The notes under the pieces are model-generated. The model ran no database searches. It had not been told where the DNA came from and worked only from the letters and a program-made list of their open reading frames with translations. The position numbers were made by a program, and so were the translations under genes. This document shows positions 1 to 5,799 of a DNA stretch of 40,291 nt, in pieces (the first letter of the stretch is position 1; each line of letters starts with the position of its first letter). The DNA comes from Alphaproteobacteria bacterium (GTDB taxonomy: Bacteria; Pseudomonadota; Alphaproteobacteria; Reyranellales; JAQSWP01): assembly GCA_029266575.1 (NCBI GenBank), contig JAQSWP010000015.1, positions 1-40,291 on the forward strand. Direction: 5' to 3'.

Positions 1-79
1 CTCGTCCTTGTTCCTTTGGCGTTCGTCCGCCTACAGTGGCGCCCGCTTCGTTTCCCCGCCTCCCGCTTTCGAGCCGCCA

Positions 80-1012
80 ATGTCGCTTCGCACCGAACAA
101 TCCCAGGAAATCGCCGACCAGCGCGCCGAGCAGACGCCAACAAGGCGCGTCACAGCACCGGCGCTGGAGGAAATCCTCTATCAGGCGCTGCCGGTGCTCG
201 ATCACGGCTTCGTCCGCGTCGTCGACTACATGGGCGACGATGCCGCCGTGGTGCAGGCCGCCCGCGTCTCCTACGGGCGCGGCACCAAGAAGGTCAGCGA
301 AGACAAGGGGCTGATCAACTATCTGATCCGCCATCGCCACACCACGCCGTTCGAGATGTGCGAGATCAAATATCACGTCAAATTGCCGATCTTCGTGGCG
401 CGGCAGTGGATCCGCCATCGCACCGCCAACGTCAACGAATATTCGGCGCGCTATTCCATTCTCGACAACGAATATTACGTGCCGCGGCCGGAGCATCTGG
501 CGGCGCAGTCGGCCGTCAACCGCCAGGGCCGCGGCGACACGCTGGCCGGCGAGGATGCGCGCCGCGTGTTCGATTTGTTGAAGAAGGACAGCGAGCAGGT
601 CTACGAGCATTACATGGAAATGCTCAACGAGAACGACAAAGGCGAGGTGCTGGATGCCGAGCGCACCGGCCTGGCGCGCGAGCTTGCCCGCATGAACCTG
701 TCGCTGAATTTCTATACCCAATGGTACTGGAAGACGGATCTGCACAATTTGATGAATTTCCTGTCGCTGCGCGCCGATGCGCATGCGCAGTACGAGATCC
801 GCGCCTATGCCGACGTGATGATCGATACGCTGAAGCGCTGGACGCCTATGGCGTACGAGGCGTTCCTGGAATATCGCATGGGCGGGGCGCAGCTCTCGCG
901 CACCGGGCTGGAGATCGTCAAGCGCATGCTGGCGGGCGAAGCCGTCGACCGGAAGGGCCGCGGGCTGTCGCTGCGCGAATGGCGTGAATTGATGGCGGCG
1001 CTGGGACGCTGA
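80..1012 (+). CDS. thyX: FAD-dependent thymidylate synthase ThyX
   Basis: Flavin-dependent thymidylate synthase makes dTMP from dUMP, using methylene-tetrahydrofolate as carbon donor and reduced FAD as hydride source. The 310-residue protein carries the family signature RHR-x7-S at residues 112-122 ([11 protein letters not shown]), followed by SARYS, and later blocks such as [15 protein letters not shown] that match the nucleotide-binding part of the fold. The ATG at 80 is preferred because the reading frame upstream of it (from position 8) encodes a Pro/Ser-rich stretch unlike the family. Length is slightly above the usual 220-300 residues because of a roughly 40-residue N-terminal extension, common in alphaproteobacteria. 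It is convergent with the solute-binding protein gene, with a gap of only 25 bp. Identification is secure; the exact start is less so. Confidence 0.95.
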
Positions 1013-1037
1013 TCCCAGACACCGCCACCGATCTCAT

Positions 1038-2600
1038 CTACTTGAACTGGATGTTGTTGAAGTTGAGGTGATAGGGCGTGCCCGTCGCCGGCTTCCACGA
1101 CTTGATGCGGTCGGTGGCGGCGAAGGAGGCATCGCACCAGATCAACGGCAGCGCCATCTTGTTGTGATCCTCGAGCGCGGCGAACTTGGCCAGCATCTTC
1201 TCGCGTTCCTTGCCGCTGGCGGTCTCGAGCTGCGCTTTGTAGAGGCTGTCGTATTCGGGAACCTTGATCTGGCCCGCCGTCCACACCGCGTTGGAAACGT
1301 ACCAGCCGCCCAGCAATTCGCCGGCATCGTCTGACATTGACGCGCCGCCCCAGTAGATGCCGGGCTGCTTGCCGCCGCGCATCATGCCGAACCAGGCTTG
1401 CGTGTCGTGCGGGATGCGCTTGATCTTAAAGCCGACCGCTTCCAGATCGCCCGCGATCGCTTCCAGCACCTGCGGCGCGTTGGGCACCGGCGCCAGCGAT
1501 TCGGTCGACAGCACGAAATCGACTTCCTTGCCCGGCGCCACGCCCGCTTCCTTCAGCAGCGCCTTGGCTTTCGCCGGATCGTACGGGATGACTTTGTATT
1601 TGGCTTCATAGCCGAAGGTGGCCGGCGTCAGGATGGTGCTGGCCGGCTCGCAAGTGCCGTTCAGAATCTTCTTGGTGATCTGCGGCAGGTTGATCGCGTA
1701 CCCGATCGCCTGCCGCACCCGCCTGTCGGCGGCTTCCGGGAACTTGGCGGTGTTGAAATAGAGCCCGGCCGTGCTGGCGTATTTCGAGGAGAACAGGCGG
1801 ATGTTCTTGTTGCTGGAGATTTTCTCCAGCAGCGGCCCGGTCAGGCCGGAGACGATGTCGGCCTCGCCCTTCTCGAGCATGGCGTAGCGGGTGAAGGGTT
1901 CGGCCACCAGCCGCTGCATCAGGAATTTGAAATGCGCGACCTCGCCCCAGTATTTGTCGTTGGTCTCGAAGCGGTTCCACTCGCCGGCCTTGGCTTCGAC
2001 CAGTTTGAACGGACCGGTGCCAACCGGCTTTTCCTGGAAGCCCTTGGCGCCGACCTTCTCGTAGTAATTCTTGGGAACGATCGACTGCAGGCCGAAGCGG
2101 GCGGTGGTGAAAAAGGCCGGCCACGGGTTCTTCAGGATCAGCCGCGCATGATGCGGGCCGATGACGTCGACCCGCTCCAGCGCGCCGGTGAAGCCGTTGC
2201 GGTAGGAGTGGTTGTTGTCGGGGCGCAGGATCTTCTCGAAGGTGAACTTCACGTCCTCGGCGGTGAACGGATCGCCGTTATGGAACACCACGTTCTTGCG
2301 CAGCTCGAAATCGACTTGCTTGCCGTCGGGACTGACGGTCCAGGACGTCGCCAAAGCCGGCTTCTTGCCGTCGACGGTCAGGTTCAGCAGCCCGTCGAAT
2401 ACCACGTCGTTGATGAGATAATCGGTGGTCGCCACCATCAGGGTCGGATCGAAGTGCTGGCGCAGGATGGGGCTGGCGAATACCAGTTCGCTCTTGCCAG
2501 CGTTTTGCGCCAAAGCCGGTCCAGCCAAAGCCGTAATCAGGAGTGCCGGCGCCAGAAGGCGCTTTGTCAGGGAAAATGAGGACGGTCTGGCTTTGAACAT
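1038..2600 (-). CDS. ABC transporter substrate-binding protein, family 5 (peptide/nickel type)
   Basis: This is a periplasmic binding protein of the DppA/OppA family (SBP_bac_5), 520 residues, the usual length. A signal peptide is visible: basic start, hydrophobic LLAPALLITALAGPALA, then a likely cleavage after ALA before QNAG. Family blocks follow, including GLLNLTVDGKKPALATSW, FRLR-like ELRKNVVFHNGDPFTAEDVKFTFEKI and RRVRQAIGYAINL. It should bind an oligopeptide, opine or similar solute in the periplasm. No permease or ATPase genes lie beside it, so it is an orphan here and either shares a transporter encoded elsewhere or has lost its partners. The substrate cannot be predicted. Confidence 0.9.
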   Translation of the reverse strand: MFKARPSSFSLTKRLLAPALLITALAGPALAQNAGKSELVFASPILRQHFDPTLMVATTDYLINDVVFDGLLNLTVDGKKPALATSWTVSPDGKQVDFELRKNVVFHNGDPFTAEDVKFTFEKILRPDNNHSYRNGFTGALERVDVIGPHHARLILKNPWPAFFTTARFGLQSIVPKNYYEKVGAKGFQEKPVGTGPFKLVEAKAGEWNRFETNDKYWGEVAHFKFLMQRLVAEPFTRYAMLEKGEADIVSGLTGPLLEKISSNKNIRLFSSKYASTAGLYFNTAKFPEAADRRVRQAIGYAINLPQITKKILNGTCEPASTILTPATFGYEAKYKVIPYDPAKAKALLKEAGVAPGKEVDFVLSTESLAPVPNAPQVLEAIAGDLEAVGFKIKRIPHDTQAWFGMMRGGKQPGIYWGGASMSDDAGELLGGWYVSNAVWTAGQIKVPEYDSLYKAQLETASGKEREKMLAKFAALEDHNKMALPLIWCDASFAATDRIKSWKPATGTPYHLNFNNIQFK

Positions 2601-2678
2601 GGCGAAGACTCCTGCTGCGAATATCCGCCACTATCCGGCGCAGGACGGCCGGCACAAACCGGCGGTGTCGCAACGGTC

Positions 2679-4325
2679 CTATTCAAAAGCGGGCAGCAGT
2701 TTCGTCTTGACGCTGAACCTTCCGGAGGGATCGGTCTTGCGCAAATTCTCCGCCAGGATCCGCCCTTCCGCCTGGTCGCGCGCATAAAGGGACAGCGTCA
2801 GGCTGCGCCGGCCAATCGTGGTTTCGAGTGTCACAACCTTGACCCAGGGCGGCGGACCGCCGACCCATTGCGCGAACCAGTCGTCGAATATGGCGAAGAC
2901 GCGCACGTTGCGCTCGCGCGCCAGCGCCGCCAGGGTTTCGACCGTCAGACGCCGCTCGAAGATCATTGGCATGATCGCTGGGGTGCCCAGCGCCACCGGA
3001 TCGAGCAGATGCGGCTCGCCCGCCCACACCACGGCGCCGATATTCATCGCCATGATGCTCTCGCGCGGATAGGCCATGGCCAGAAAGCGCGCGGCGTAGA
3101 AATCGCGGTTCAGCACCTCGGCGCTGGCGTTCTGGGCGTTGACGTAGGTCGCCTGTGCCCGGCCCAGCGCGGTGTAGAGCGTCAGCGCCGCCGCGAACCC
3201 TGCCAGCACGCCCGCCGCCTGGTGCAAGCCTCGCTTGGCATCGAGCAGACGCGGCAGGCGCAGCGCGATGGCGCCCAATGCGCAGAGACCGAGCACGATG
3301 AGATAGGCCTCGTAGCGGCTGCCCCAGCCGAAAGTGGCGAAGGTGGCGTGCAGCCAGGTGCCGGCCACGAACAGCGCCACCAGCACGATGGCGGCCTGTT
3401 GCAGCGCCGCCAGGCGCAGCCGCCACAGCATGATCCCGAGATAGACGCCGCCGCTTATGAAGAGCAGCGCCAGCAATGGCTGCTGCCCCAGCCGCCAGAT
3501 CGGATGCCACACCAGCTTGGCGCCGAGGCGCACGATGCTGTTCTCCGACAGCAGCATCGGCGCCACCGACTTGGCGAGGATCGGCACGGGCAGGAAGGTC
3601 AGCCCTTTGCCCATGGCCCAAAAGCCGATGACGCAGACTGAGAGCGCACTGGCGGCGATCAGGCCGGCCGCCATCAGGTAACGCCGGCGCCACACCATCC
3701 CCGCCGCCAGCAGCGCGGTCAGCCACAGGCTCTCGTAACGCAGCGCCGGCAGGGCGCAGCACAGCAGCATCAGCGCAATATCGCGCCAACGCTCGGGCCT
3801 GCCCTGCGCGACCGCGTTGGCGCCAAGCCAGGCGGCCAGCAACAGCAGCGCTGCATGCAGCGGATGCTCCATCGCCTGCCAGGTCAGCGGCGGCAGCGAG
3901 GCACCGGCTACGATCAGGCACAGCACGAAGCCGCGGCCCGCCAGATCGCCGAAGCCCGCACCTGCATCGGCGCGCAAGATGCGGTTGGCGATGAGCAGGA
4001 CGGCGATGCAAGAGACCGCCGCCAGCACGCCGGGCAGCAGATACCAGGGGCCGACCAGCGCAAAGCCCAGCGCCAGCAGCAGCACCCACAGCGGCGAGGA
4101 GGACGCGTGCGTGGTTTCCCACGGCGTGACGCCATAGACCCCATGCAGCGCCAGATTGCGCGCTATCGCCATATGGATGTGAACGTCGTCGATGGCGTAG
4201 ATCGGCTCGCCCAGCGCCTGCCAAACCTGGATGGCGCCGATCGCGGTCAGCGCCCCATAAAGCGCGACCGCCGCGGCAAGCGGTAGATGTCGGACGGCAA
4301 GGGGGGCAAAATTGCGGGCGATCAT
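2679..4325 (-). CDS. Polytopic membrane protein, glycosyltransferase family 39/83-like
   Basis: A 548-residue integral membrane protein with about ten hydrophobic segments. After the first membrane helix, a short loop reads YAIDDVHIHMAIARNLALHG, then HASSSPLWVLLL. An acidic Asp-Asp pair in the first large periplasmic loop is the arrangement seen in GT-C glycosyltransferases that use polyprenyl-phosphate sugars, so transfer of a sugar to an envelope acceptor is the likely role. This is family inference, and no substrate is evident. The C-terminal soluble part (last ~100 residues) contains VRVFAIFDDWFAQW. The ATG at 4325 starts just before the first hydrophobic helix; an in-frame start at 4391 would add 22 arginine-rich residues. 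It is divergent from the small exported protein at 4414. Confidence 0.6.
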   Translation of the reverse strand: MIARNFAPLAVRHLPLAAAVALYGALTAIGAIQVWQALGEPIYAIDDVHIHMAIARNLALHGVYGVTPWETTHASSSPLWVLLLALGFALVGPWYLLPGVLAAVSCIAVLLIANRILRADAGAGFGDLAGRGFVLCLIVAGASLPPLTWQAMEHPLHAALLLLAAWLGANAVAQGRPERWRDIALMLLCCALPALRYESLWLTALLAAGMVWRRRYLMAAGLIAASALSVCVIGFWAMGKGLTFLPVPILAKSVAPMLLSENSIVRLGAKLVWHPIWRLGQQPLLALLFISGGVYLGIMLWRLRLAALQQAAIVLVALFVAGTWLHATFATFGWGSRYEAYLIVLGLCALGAIALRLPRLLDAKRGLHQAAGVLAGFAAALTLYTALGRAQATYVNAQNASAEVLNRDFYAARFLAMAYPRESIMAMNIGAVVWAGEPHLLDPVALGTPAIMPMIFERRLTVETLAALARERNVRVFAIFDDWFAQWVGGPPPWVKVVTLETTIGRRSLTLSLYARDQAEGRILAENLRKTDPSGRFSVKTKLLPAFE

Positions 4326-4413
4326 GATGGCGAGCGCAAGCTTGCGGCAAAGCGCTGCAGCGCGCAAACGGCAGCGTCTTGCCAATGACATATTGGCGCG
4401 CTAAGGCGGTTGC

Positions 4414-4989
4414 ATGTGGTGCCGGACAATTCTCCTCGCTGCGCTGCTCTTCGTACTGGCGCTGCCTGTCGCCCAGGCGCAAACGCCCCGGCCGCTGGGC
4501 GCAGAAGATGCGGTGCGCGCCTACGACATCGCGCAGATCAGCCGTTCGGCGGTGCGCGATCAGCTCGCGCTGTGCGTCGACGATGGGGAAAAGCTCGAAC
4601 AGGTGTACACGCGGCTGCGCCCCTCGCGCGCTTCGGACCGCGGCGACTGGGGCGACTGGGGGGAGCTGCTCGCGCGTGTCGGCGGCGAGTTGAAAACCTG
4701 CCTGCGCGGCTACGTCAAGCAGCTGGCGCTGCACCGGCGCGATCTTGCGCTGTTCGAGGATCGTCTGCCGCTGCTGAAGGAGCCCAAGCGGCTGACCATC
4801 AGTCCCAAGCTTGTGATCGAGATCAACGCCTACGCAGCAGGGTTGGAAAAGGAGCTGAGCGGCTACGCCAGCCAGGCGCGCACGCTCGCCAACGCGGCGG
4901 AACTTTCCAGCGGCCGCGCCGACGCACTGCTGCGCGAGGCGGGGGTGCTGAAATTCGAATTGCCGCAAGGATTCGGCGATGGAATTTGA
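4414..4989 (+). CDS. Hypothetical exported protein
   Basis: A 191-residue protein of unrecognised family. Residues 1-23 form a clear Sec signal peptide (short basic start, then LLAALLFVLALPVAQAQ), with likely cleavage after AQA, so the mature protein is probably periplasmic. The mature part is rich in Ala, Leu, Arg and Glu and looks helical. It contains two cysteines (near residues 50 and 90, in ALCVDD and LKTCLRG) that could form a disulfide, and a GDWGDWGELL repeat-like turn. There are no membrane segments after the signal. It is divergent from the glycosyltransferase-like gene, with a start-to-start gap of under 100 bp, so the two may share a control region. No function is proposed. Confidence 0.7.
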   Translation: MWCRTILLAALLFVLALPVAQAQTPRPLGAEDAVRAYDIAQISRSAVRDQLALCVDDGEKLEQVYTRLRPSRASDRGDWGDWGELLARVGGELKTCLRGYVKQLALHRRDLALFEDRLPLLKEPKRLTISPKLVIEINAYAAGLEKELSGYASQARTLANAAELSSGRADALLREAGVLKFELPQGFGDGI

Positions 4990-5000
4990 CCAAAGACCCC

Positions 5001-5028
5001 TTGAAACGCGGGGGGATGATGTTATCTT
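5001..5028 (+). promoter_or_regulatory. Candidate sigma-70-type promoter for structured RNA
   Basis: TTGAAA at 5001-5006 and TATCTT at 5023-5028 are separated by 16 bp. The -35 matches the consensus in 5 of 6 positions; the -10 is only fair. It would start transcription at about 5034-5036, exactly at the foot of a 10-bp hairpin, which strengthens the call. The -10 lies in the local A+T-rich patch just after the end of the exported-protein gene. Confidence 0.45.
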
Positions 5029-5033
5029 ATTGC

Positions 5034-5227
5034 GCCTGATCGATTGTCGGTCAGGCGAGCGAGAGTTTGGCCATGCAGAGCGTCATCATTATGCGACGAC
5101 GTACGAGCCGCCCGGGAATCCGGGCGCTGCTGCTGTGCCATATTTGTCCCGGCTGAGGGGCGGTCCGGAAGTGGACTCGCCTCCGACTTGGGCGGCGCAG
5201 CGGCACCTTTGGATGCCGCTTTTTTTC
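5034..5227 (+). ncRNA. Candidate structured small RNA or leader RNA ending in an intrinsic terminator
   Basis: This is a gene-free stretch with dense secondary structure. Hairpin 1 is GCCTGATCGA/TCGGTCAGGC at 5034-5056, 10 bp with one G-U pair and a 3-nt loop. Hairpin 2 is CGCCCGG/CCGGGCG at 5109-5126, a perfect 7 bp with loop GAAT. Hairpin 3 spans about 5157-5183 (GGCGGTCC pairing with GGAC-T-CGCC, one bulge). The last is a terminator hairpin with seven T residues at 5199-5226. A promoter-like sequence sits directly upstream. The length of about 190 nt suits a 6S-like RNA, a trans-acting sRNA or a terminator-controlled leader of the acetyltransferase gene 40 bp downstream. I do not recognise a known family; a CCTCC sequence at 5180-5184 could pair with ribosome binding sites. 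The structure is seen in the sequence, the function is unknown. Confidence 0.5.
5199..5226 (+). terminator. Intrinsic terminator
   Basis: The stem AGCGGCA/TGCCGCT (5199-5205 with 5214-5220) can be extended inward by CC/GG and is followed by a run of seven T (5220-5226). This is a textbook Rho-independent terminator. It ends 39 bp before the acetyltransferase start, so it stops an upstream transcript rather than that gene's own. Confidence 0.85.
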
Positions 5228-5265
5228 TGCCTGCGCATCGGGCCACGGGCCCTGAGGACCTCGCG

Positions 5266-5799
5266 ATGAAGATCATGGTTGAACGGCCGCAGGATGCGGC
5301 GCCGGTCGAAAAGCTGAACGACGTTGCCTTCGGTTCCGACCGCTACGGCAAGACGGTCTATCGCCTGCGCGACGGCGTGGCGCCCGAGGCCAGGCTGTGC
5401 TTTGTGGCGCTGGGCGAGAAGGGCGAGTTGCTGGCGTCTCTGCGCTTCTGGCCGATCGCCATCGGCGAGACCAAGAGTCCGGCCGTTCTGCTGGGTCCGC
5501 TTGCCGTGCAGCCTGAATTGCGTGGCATGGGCTATGGCAAGGCGCTGATGCGTCATGGCATCGAGCAGGCGCGCCTGCAGGGTCACAAGATGATCGTGCT
5601 GGTGGGTGATCCCGAATACTACAACCCCTTCGGCTTCACCCGCGAGCAGGCGCTCGCGCTCAAGCTGCCCGGCCCGGTCGAAGAGCGCCGCTTCCTGGCG
5701 CTGGGCCTGACGCCCGACGCACTTGATGGCGTTGCCGGCATGATCGGCAAGCCACCCGGCTTGGCCAAGGCCGCGCAAAAGCGGCGCAAGCGCGCCTGA
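5266..5799 (+). CDS. GNAT family N-acetyltransferase
   Basis: A 177-residue acetyltransferase of the GNAT fold, close in style to the YhbS-like group. The acetyl-CoA binding motif A is visible as LGPLAVQPELRGMGYGKALM (R/Q-x-x-G-x-G/A type, RGMGYGKAL), followed by the conserved GDPEYYNPFGF block. The substrate is unknown; relatives acetylate amines of small molecules, tRNA or proteins. The ATG at 5266 is chosen because upstream in-frame codons run through the structured RNA and terminator. The start ATGAAGATCATGG has a second in-frame ATG at 5275. The gene ends in a bidirectional terminator shared with the convergent Mrp gene. Its expression might depend on read-through of the terminator just upstream, but this is only positional inference. 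Confidence 0.88.
   Translation: MKIMVERPQDAAPVEKLNDVAFGSDRYGKTVYRLRDGVAPEARLCFVALGEKGELLASLRFWPIAIGETKSPAVLLGPLAVQPELRGMGYGKALMRHGIEQARLQGHKMIVLVGDPEYYNPFGFTREQALALKLPGPVEERRFLALGLTPDALDGVAGMIGKPPGLAKAAQKRRKRA

Follow-up and report, generated by a model that had tools for sequence, protein, structure and literature searches.

One of the closest described systems is the speF leader of Salmonella, in which consecutive Arg codons of a short ORF sense arginine and ribosome pausing at these codons reportedly decides what becomes of the mRNA (PMC6386406). This ORF, ORF34/SpeFL (DUF2618, PF10940), is found in Salmonella and other gammaproteobacteria. It encodes a conserved 34-aa peptide with the core HIRRT...HIMM and controls the ornithine decarboxylase gene speF. 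The hisL, trpL, ilv, leu and thr leaders of Proteobacteria have an early run of regulatory codons followed by alternative folds, and their targets are biosynthetic operons. To our knowledge, the classical proteobacterial leader peptides (His, Thr, Ilv, Leu, Trp, Phe) include no arginine-codon attenuator. Within the Alphaproteobacteria, rnTrpL/peTrpL of Sinorhizobium meliloti is an attenuator with a (nearly) leaderless short ORF, Trp codons, a trpE target and reported roles in trans. The alphaproteobacterial speF leader (RF00518) heads an odc-GNAT operon in Sinorhizobium, Neorhizobium and Thalassospira, and the acetyltransferase of that operon belongs to the same family as the GNAT gene described below.

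The window analysed here is a stretch of 40,291 nucleotides from an assembly of the Reyranella order; the sampled genomes include no other member of its family. The gap in front of the acetyltransferase gene is the 5′ leader of that gene and not an isolated structured RNA. We consider it a likely ribosome-mediated attenuator with an arginine-codon leader ORF, the GNAT gene probably being switched by how well ribosomes read arginine codons. The features of the region, all on the + strand, are as follows.

5001 to 5028, + strand: promoter-like pair TTGAAA-16-TATCTT with an extended -10 TG (consensus match only).
5034 to 5056, + strand: 10-bp hairpin with a loop of 3 at the 5′ end of the predicted transcript (fold).
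5073 to 5156, + strand: leader peptide ORF, 27 aa, MQSVIIMRRRTSRPGIRALLLCHICPG*, like the ORFs before orthologous GNAT genes in 26 families.
5094 to 5102, + strand: core RRR codons CGA CGA CGT, putative ribosome stalling site (codon comparison with relatives).
5106 to 5128, + strand: hairpin within the leader ORF, downstream of the RRR codons (fold).
5129 to 5139, + strand: 5′ strand of the putative antiterminator, GCUGCUGUGCC, forming 11 bp with 5194 to 5204.
5157 to 5183, + strand: hairpin enclosed by the putative antiterminator (fold).
5194 to 5204, + strand: 3′ strand of the putative antiterminator, overlapping the 5′ arm of the terminator (fold).
5199 to 5226, + strand: intrinsic terminator, hairpin 5199 to 5220 and T run 5221 to 5226 (sequence scan, fold).
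5266 to 5799, + strand: GNAT-family N-acetyltransferase gene, YhbS-like, 177 aa, the presumed regulated gene (PF00583).

Most of the layout given in a preliminary description of this DNA was recovered. The promoter-like pair was present at 5001-5028 with TG ahead of the -10, and it was the sole match within 2.4 kb (0.3 expected). Folding reproduced the hairpins at 5034-5056 and 5157-5183, and a third one, placed before at 5109-5126, corresponded to 5106-5128. The distance of 39 bases from the T run to the acetyltransferase start was correct as well. The stretch 5034-5228 folded at -100.7 kcal/mol (z = -4.56; equalled in 0 of 200 shuffles). The region had been called a gene-free gap, which was wrong: the short ORF 5073-5156 lies inside it. 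The dyad GCCTGATCGA-TTG-TCGGTCAGGC that makes up the hairpin 5034-5056 sits at the expected transcription start, and this hairpin was not found in the leaders of relatives; the dyad could be an operator instead of an RNA element.

The leader ORF of the window and the GNAT gene are in different reading frames. The peptide has the layout MQSVIIM-RRR-TSRPGIRALLLCHICPG*, and a second ATG at 5091, immediately 5′ of the RRR codons, is an alternative start. As in ORF34/SpeFL, Arg codons follow one another in a short ORF of a structured leader, and like the classical leaders it has an early codon run and predicted alternative folds, here with a putative intrinsic terminator. It differs from ORF34/SpeFL in preceding a GNAT gene and in a peptide that is unconserved outside RRR among GNAT leaders, from the classical leaders in reading the Arg codon CGA ahead of a stand-alone acetyltransferase, and from rnTrpL/peTrpL in having Arg codons and a GNAT target. 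The core HIRRT...HIMM was not found among 55 leaders, and consecutive arginines alone are in common. Identity of the window leader with SpeFL/ORF34 (PF10940) was rejected, given the missing core and the GNAT gene downstream. By analogy, the GNAT leader would work like the classical leader-peptide attenuators and ORF34, yet it lacks the features that define speF.

Relatives of the leader were collected by way of the protein. A profile of the GNAT protein was searched in 337 alphaproteobacterial genomes, and the regions upstream of 86 matches were scored for a short ORF with RRR in its first 17 residues, located at -260 to -50 from the GNAT start; an 8-species alignment (A1) served for protein searches only. 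Such an ORF was present in 54 of the 86 upstream regions, as against a mean of 11.9 and a maximum of 17 in dinucleotide shuffles (30 rounds) and 17 on the reverse strand. The next-best homo-tripeptide, TTT, reached 10/86, and no homo-tripeptide other than RRR exceeded 10. When at least two CGA codons were required, 52/86 regions (26 families) retained the RRR ORF, compared with 1 of 178 control starts, which were the upstream regions of other long ORFs at the same loci; with three CGA codons the numbers were 46/86 and 0/178. The 34 upstream regions without a CGA-rich leader included several in operons behind thyX or odc. In a later sample of one family (f35), 4 of whose 21 genomes had already been seen, the leader was found in 21/21 with three CGA codons throughout.

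The peptides of the relatives include MTADLLRRRMTC... in Oceanibaculum pacificum, MSRSHALRIRRRSH... in Azospirillum cavernae, MTVDLRRRTTC... in a marine alphaproteobacterial MAG and MKQKLRRR* in a Rhodobiaceae MAG. CGACGACGT is common to the window and Oceanibaculum leaders, and the core CGA CGA CGT to these two and the marine alphaproteobacterial MAG. Outside RRR the peptides diverge, with MRRR* and MTIIRRRR* as extremes. The median codon index of RRR was 7 in the 55 leaders. A conserved short upstream frame and a regulatory codon run near its start, two marks of an attenuator, were both present. CGACGACG occurred in 49 upstream regions, and the arginine frame had an in-frame start and stop in 49/49 (48 ATG); the remaining two frames were open in just 11 and 7. 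In the compared relatives the CGA-CGA-CGA ORF lay invariably upstream of the same GNAT gene. What sequence comparison establishes is the leader ORF together with its reading frame, the CGA codons and the association with the GNAT gene.

The core RRR codons were CGA in 157/165 cases (95%; 55 non-identical leaders), a count limited to leaders with two or more CGA codons, each scored by its best triple; without the two-CGA requirement it was 164/180. The remaining arginines of the same leaders were CGA in 16/129 (12%), and the arginine immediately after the core in 9/25. CGA accounted for 12% of the arginines of neighbouring genes and for 6/227 in the genes of the window. Rare and frequent Arg codons worked alike in ORF34 of speF, whereas CGA is nearly invariant in the GNAT leaders. 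The open arginine frame in 49/49 regions and the core CGA bias together indicate that the leader is very probably translated and that the codon identity of the RRR core is under selection, a case of direct selection on a synonymous codon.

The codon bias also bears on a nascent-peptide arrest, in which RRR would stall the ribosome from within the exit tunnel, either alone or together with a ligand (polyamine, ornithine or an antibiotic), and amino acids rather than codons would be sensed. RRR is the only peptide feature in common and often follows L or I (L in 24 and I in 5 of 55 leaders), the GNAT gene of one clade sits behind ornithine decarboxylase, and the SpeFL/ORF34 leader shows ligand and arginine-codon effects both (PMC6386406). 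However, the peptide alone leaves the 95% of core CGA unexplained, CGC and CGG being the common codons and CGA making up the 12% given above at the other leader arginines. RRR also lacks conserved flanking residues, and MRRR* puts no nascent chain in the tunnel. We therefore regard peptide arrest as unlikely.

A codon-reading attenuator would work as follows. On entering the leader ORF 5073-5156, the first ribosome would meet three consecutive Arg codons, ideally CGA CGA CGA. Since tRNA-Arg-ICG decodes CGA by a poor I-A wobble, slow decoding or a shortage of the charged tRNA would make the ribosome pause at CGA, and the position of the pause would set the fold of the leader RNA. CGU, CGC and CGA are all decoded by tRNA-Arg-ICG (PMC3711424), and in a his-leader assay in Salmonella, Arg-Arg pairs with CGA ranked with the slow pairs (PMC4046918). 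In the window, stalling on the first CGA would let 5129-5139 pair with 5194-5204, and GNAT would be transcribed; a ribosome reaching the tail of the ORF would cover 5129-5139, the terminator 5199-5226 would form and transcription would stop. We infer that ribosomes pause, that the signal is arginine or CGA decoding, that an antiterminator switch operates in the window and that regulation runs in the direction in which stalling turns GNAT on. The simplest signal would be charged tRNA-Arg-ICG. It is possible, and we put it forward tentatively, that what the leader specifically monitors is CGA decoding, through the amount, charging or inosine-34 editing of tRNA-Arg-ICG, and not arginine as such; the acetyltransferase would then restore or protect arginine/polyamine metabolism or translation upon failure of this tRNA. 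If so, a codon-specific, and not merely amino-acid-specific, attenuator would have been kept across Alphaproteobacteria.

The hairpin and the TTTTTT of the terminator at 5199-5226 described before were both present, but the hairpin was unformed in the predicted free transcript because its 5′ arm is held by the duplex 5129-5139/5194-5204. Two terminator-like matches were found in 2.4 kb as against 1.7 expected, and the terminator alone is therefore not beyond chance; it counts through its context. The duplex between the tail of the leader ORF (5129-5139) and 5194-5204 has no mismatch, G-U pairs being allowed, and amounts to -25.0 kcal/mol, which was equalled in 6 of 2000 shuffles. This putative antiterminator and the terminator hairpin 5199-5220 are mutually exclusive. 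The switch was modelled by equilibrium folding with the ribosome footprint blocked. With the ribosome on the first CGA, the predicted probability was 0.001 for the terminator and 0.99 for the antiterminator, while with the ribosome on 5109-5153 that of the terminator rose to 0.95. On the second or third Arg codon the two were at about 0.5 each, and the outcome for a ribosome on the stop codon hinged on the assumed footprint. Free (unoccupied) RNA favoured the antiterminator at 0.997. Given this preference of the free RNA and the even values at the second and third Arg codons, the switch of the window is not a clean one.

A clear intrinsic terminator was detected behind 18/57 leaders in a crude scan, and a stalled ribosome hardly altered the mean accessibility of the GNAT start (0.42 to 0.45). 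These values indicate that no single output mechanism is common to the leaders. Opening of the GNAT start by the stalled ribosome was rejected as a general output, since the prediction holds for some leaders only. In a subgroup of family f35, CGUC-AUG at the GNAT start is complementary to the CGA tract and to an intervening AUGACGG element, and three pairs of the consensus fold are changed on both sides, which in the folding model suggests start-site control in place of termination. The input (CGA codons) is conserved among relatives, and the output would be variable; a conserved input with a variable output is also known in other leader-peptide systems.

Such pairing raises the alternative that CGACGACGA is kept as RNA, pairing with the GNAT start region (e.g. 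CGUC-AUG) to hide the start, while translation of the leader merely opens the helix. The consensus fold of one subgroup pairs GACG of the tract with CGUC ahead of the GNAT start codon, and the tract pairs near the GNAT start in further leaders (L076, L103, L107, L108, L122). In many leaders, the window included, it pairs elsewhere or scarcely, and the open arginine frame in 49/49 regions is left unexplained, which makes this alternative very unlikely. In some lineages, the pairing of tract and start may simply be how this attenuator produces its output, in which case it would be no true rival.

Also in family f35 (e.g. L254, L267, L271), a conserved TGTGATAGATC-like stretch ends 4-8 bases 5′ of the leader ATG, with TTTATTT farther upstream. 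A promoter-like stretch directly 5′ of the ATG is a likeness to rnTrpL/peTrpL, and the leader mRNA of this family may be leaderless, as reported for rnTrpL.

The functional RNA proposed in the preliminary description stands insofar as the region is structured, very probably regulates the acetyltransferase as its leader and belongs to no described Rfam family; a trans-acting sRNA, a 6S-like RNA or an RNA that binds a metabolite or a protein was unsupported, the relatives sharing the ORF and not the four stems. A structured RNA without a peptide, be it a riboswitch, a leader that binds a protein, or an sRNA (6S-like or trans-acting) terminated at 5226, would account for the strong fold, the promoter-like site of its own and the terminator. 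An Infernal search against Rfam, which had been suggested for this stretch, assigned it to no family: with Rfam 15 at gathering and relaxed thresholds the gap was unmatched, the best E-value there being 2, and the sole match at the gathering threshold in the window was a tRNA-Lys located elsewhere. The leader was also unmatched in 20 related loci. A DNA similarity search of the gap in 40 genomes of the same order gave merely chance-level pieces of 24-36 bases. A fold common to all leaders was searched for and not found; what the leaders have in common is the ORF. We consider a peptide-free RNA extremely improbable. The terminated transcript of an attenuator could itself act in trans, like rnTrpL of Sinorhizobium (cited in PMC10117765).

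Two individual families were rejected. 6S RNA is a long rod with a central bubble, and the Rfam 6S model had no match in the window. RF00518 stayed below the gathering threshold in the window and in the 20 related loci. The RRR ORF was absent from the odc leaders in 3/3 examined, in which speF and ar45 were found instead. Upstream of odc, ar45 (listed as an sRNA) and the speF leader lay in tandem with the same orientation and a spacing of 8 bases in 3/3 (Sinorhizobium, L183:2707-3016; Neorhizobium, L185:1213-1535; Thalassospira, L184:1829-2044). Both elements may thus belong to a single long odc leader, in which case ar45 would be no independent sRNA.

The gene downstream of the leader showed the GNAT fold profile and the acetyl-CoA loop. 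Acetyltransferase profiles PF00583 (E = 8e-10), PF13508 and PF13527 scored above the cut-off, and the nearest solved structures were 4zbg and 4rs2 (profile matches, 2e-23). The genes beside the leader and GNAT vary: Mrp/ApbC in the window, miaB-like in Azospirillum, CCA-transferase-like in Rhodobiaceae and further genes in other lineages, as identified by eye from translations with profile support for part only. As the neighbours differ, the leader and GNAT travel as one unit. In a tree of 72 GNAT sequences, many forks of which were weakly supported, leader-bearing genes were scattered across the family and leaderless genes clustered where GNAT had joined an operon, behind thyX in Reyranella or behind ornithine decarboxylase in rhizobia and others. 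The simplest reading would be an ancestral leader that was lost several times.

In Sinorhizobium, Neorhizobium and Thalassospira, ornithine decarboxylase is immediately followed by a GNAT gene of the same family, which makes a function close to arginine, ornithine or polyamine metabolism plausible. In Reyranella, GNAT follows thyX immediately and no comparable gap was found. The window carries, within 8-4986, a thyX-like gene about 4 kb upstream of GNAT. The two are separated by genes resembling those of an ABC-transporter-binding protein and a large membrane protein and by a 191-aa ORF (4414-4986) that begins like a signal peptide and was unmatched in Pfam and NCBIfam. Either GNAT acquired its own promoter and leader by an insertion or rearrangement, or Reyranella lost the leader; the arrangements in the two genomes are compatible with both.

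No description of an arginine-codon GNAT leader was found in the literature searched, which covered few subscription journals. With 26 families in one sample, the leader is unusually widespread. It gives a first hint at the function of a common acetyltransferase, whose expression would be tied to the reading of arginine codons and whose relatives are paired with ornithine decarboxylase. A second clear RRR leader, as expected of a regulon, was not found in five low-GC genomes, and a comparable scan of 14 genomes was too noisy to draw on; a regulon may nonetheless exist. The in-frame ATG...CGACGACGA matches in the five low-GC genomes lay within or opposite coding sequences with one doubtful exception. 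This was MRRRRRK* before an enoyl-CoA hydratase-like ORF (L229, genome G197), the only candidate for a second leader in the scan.
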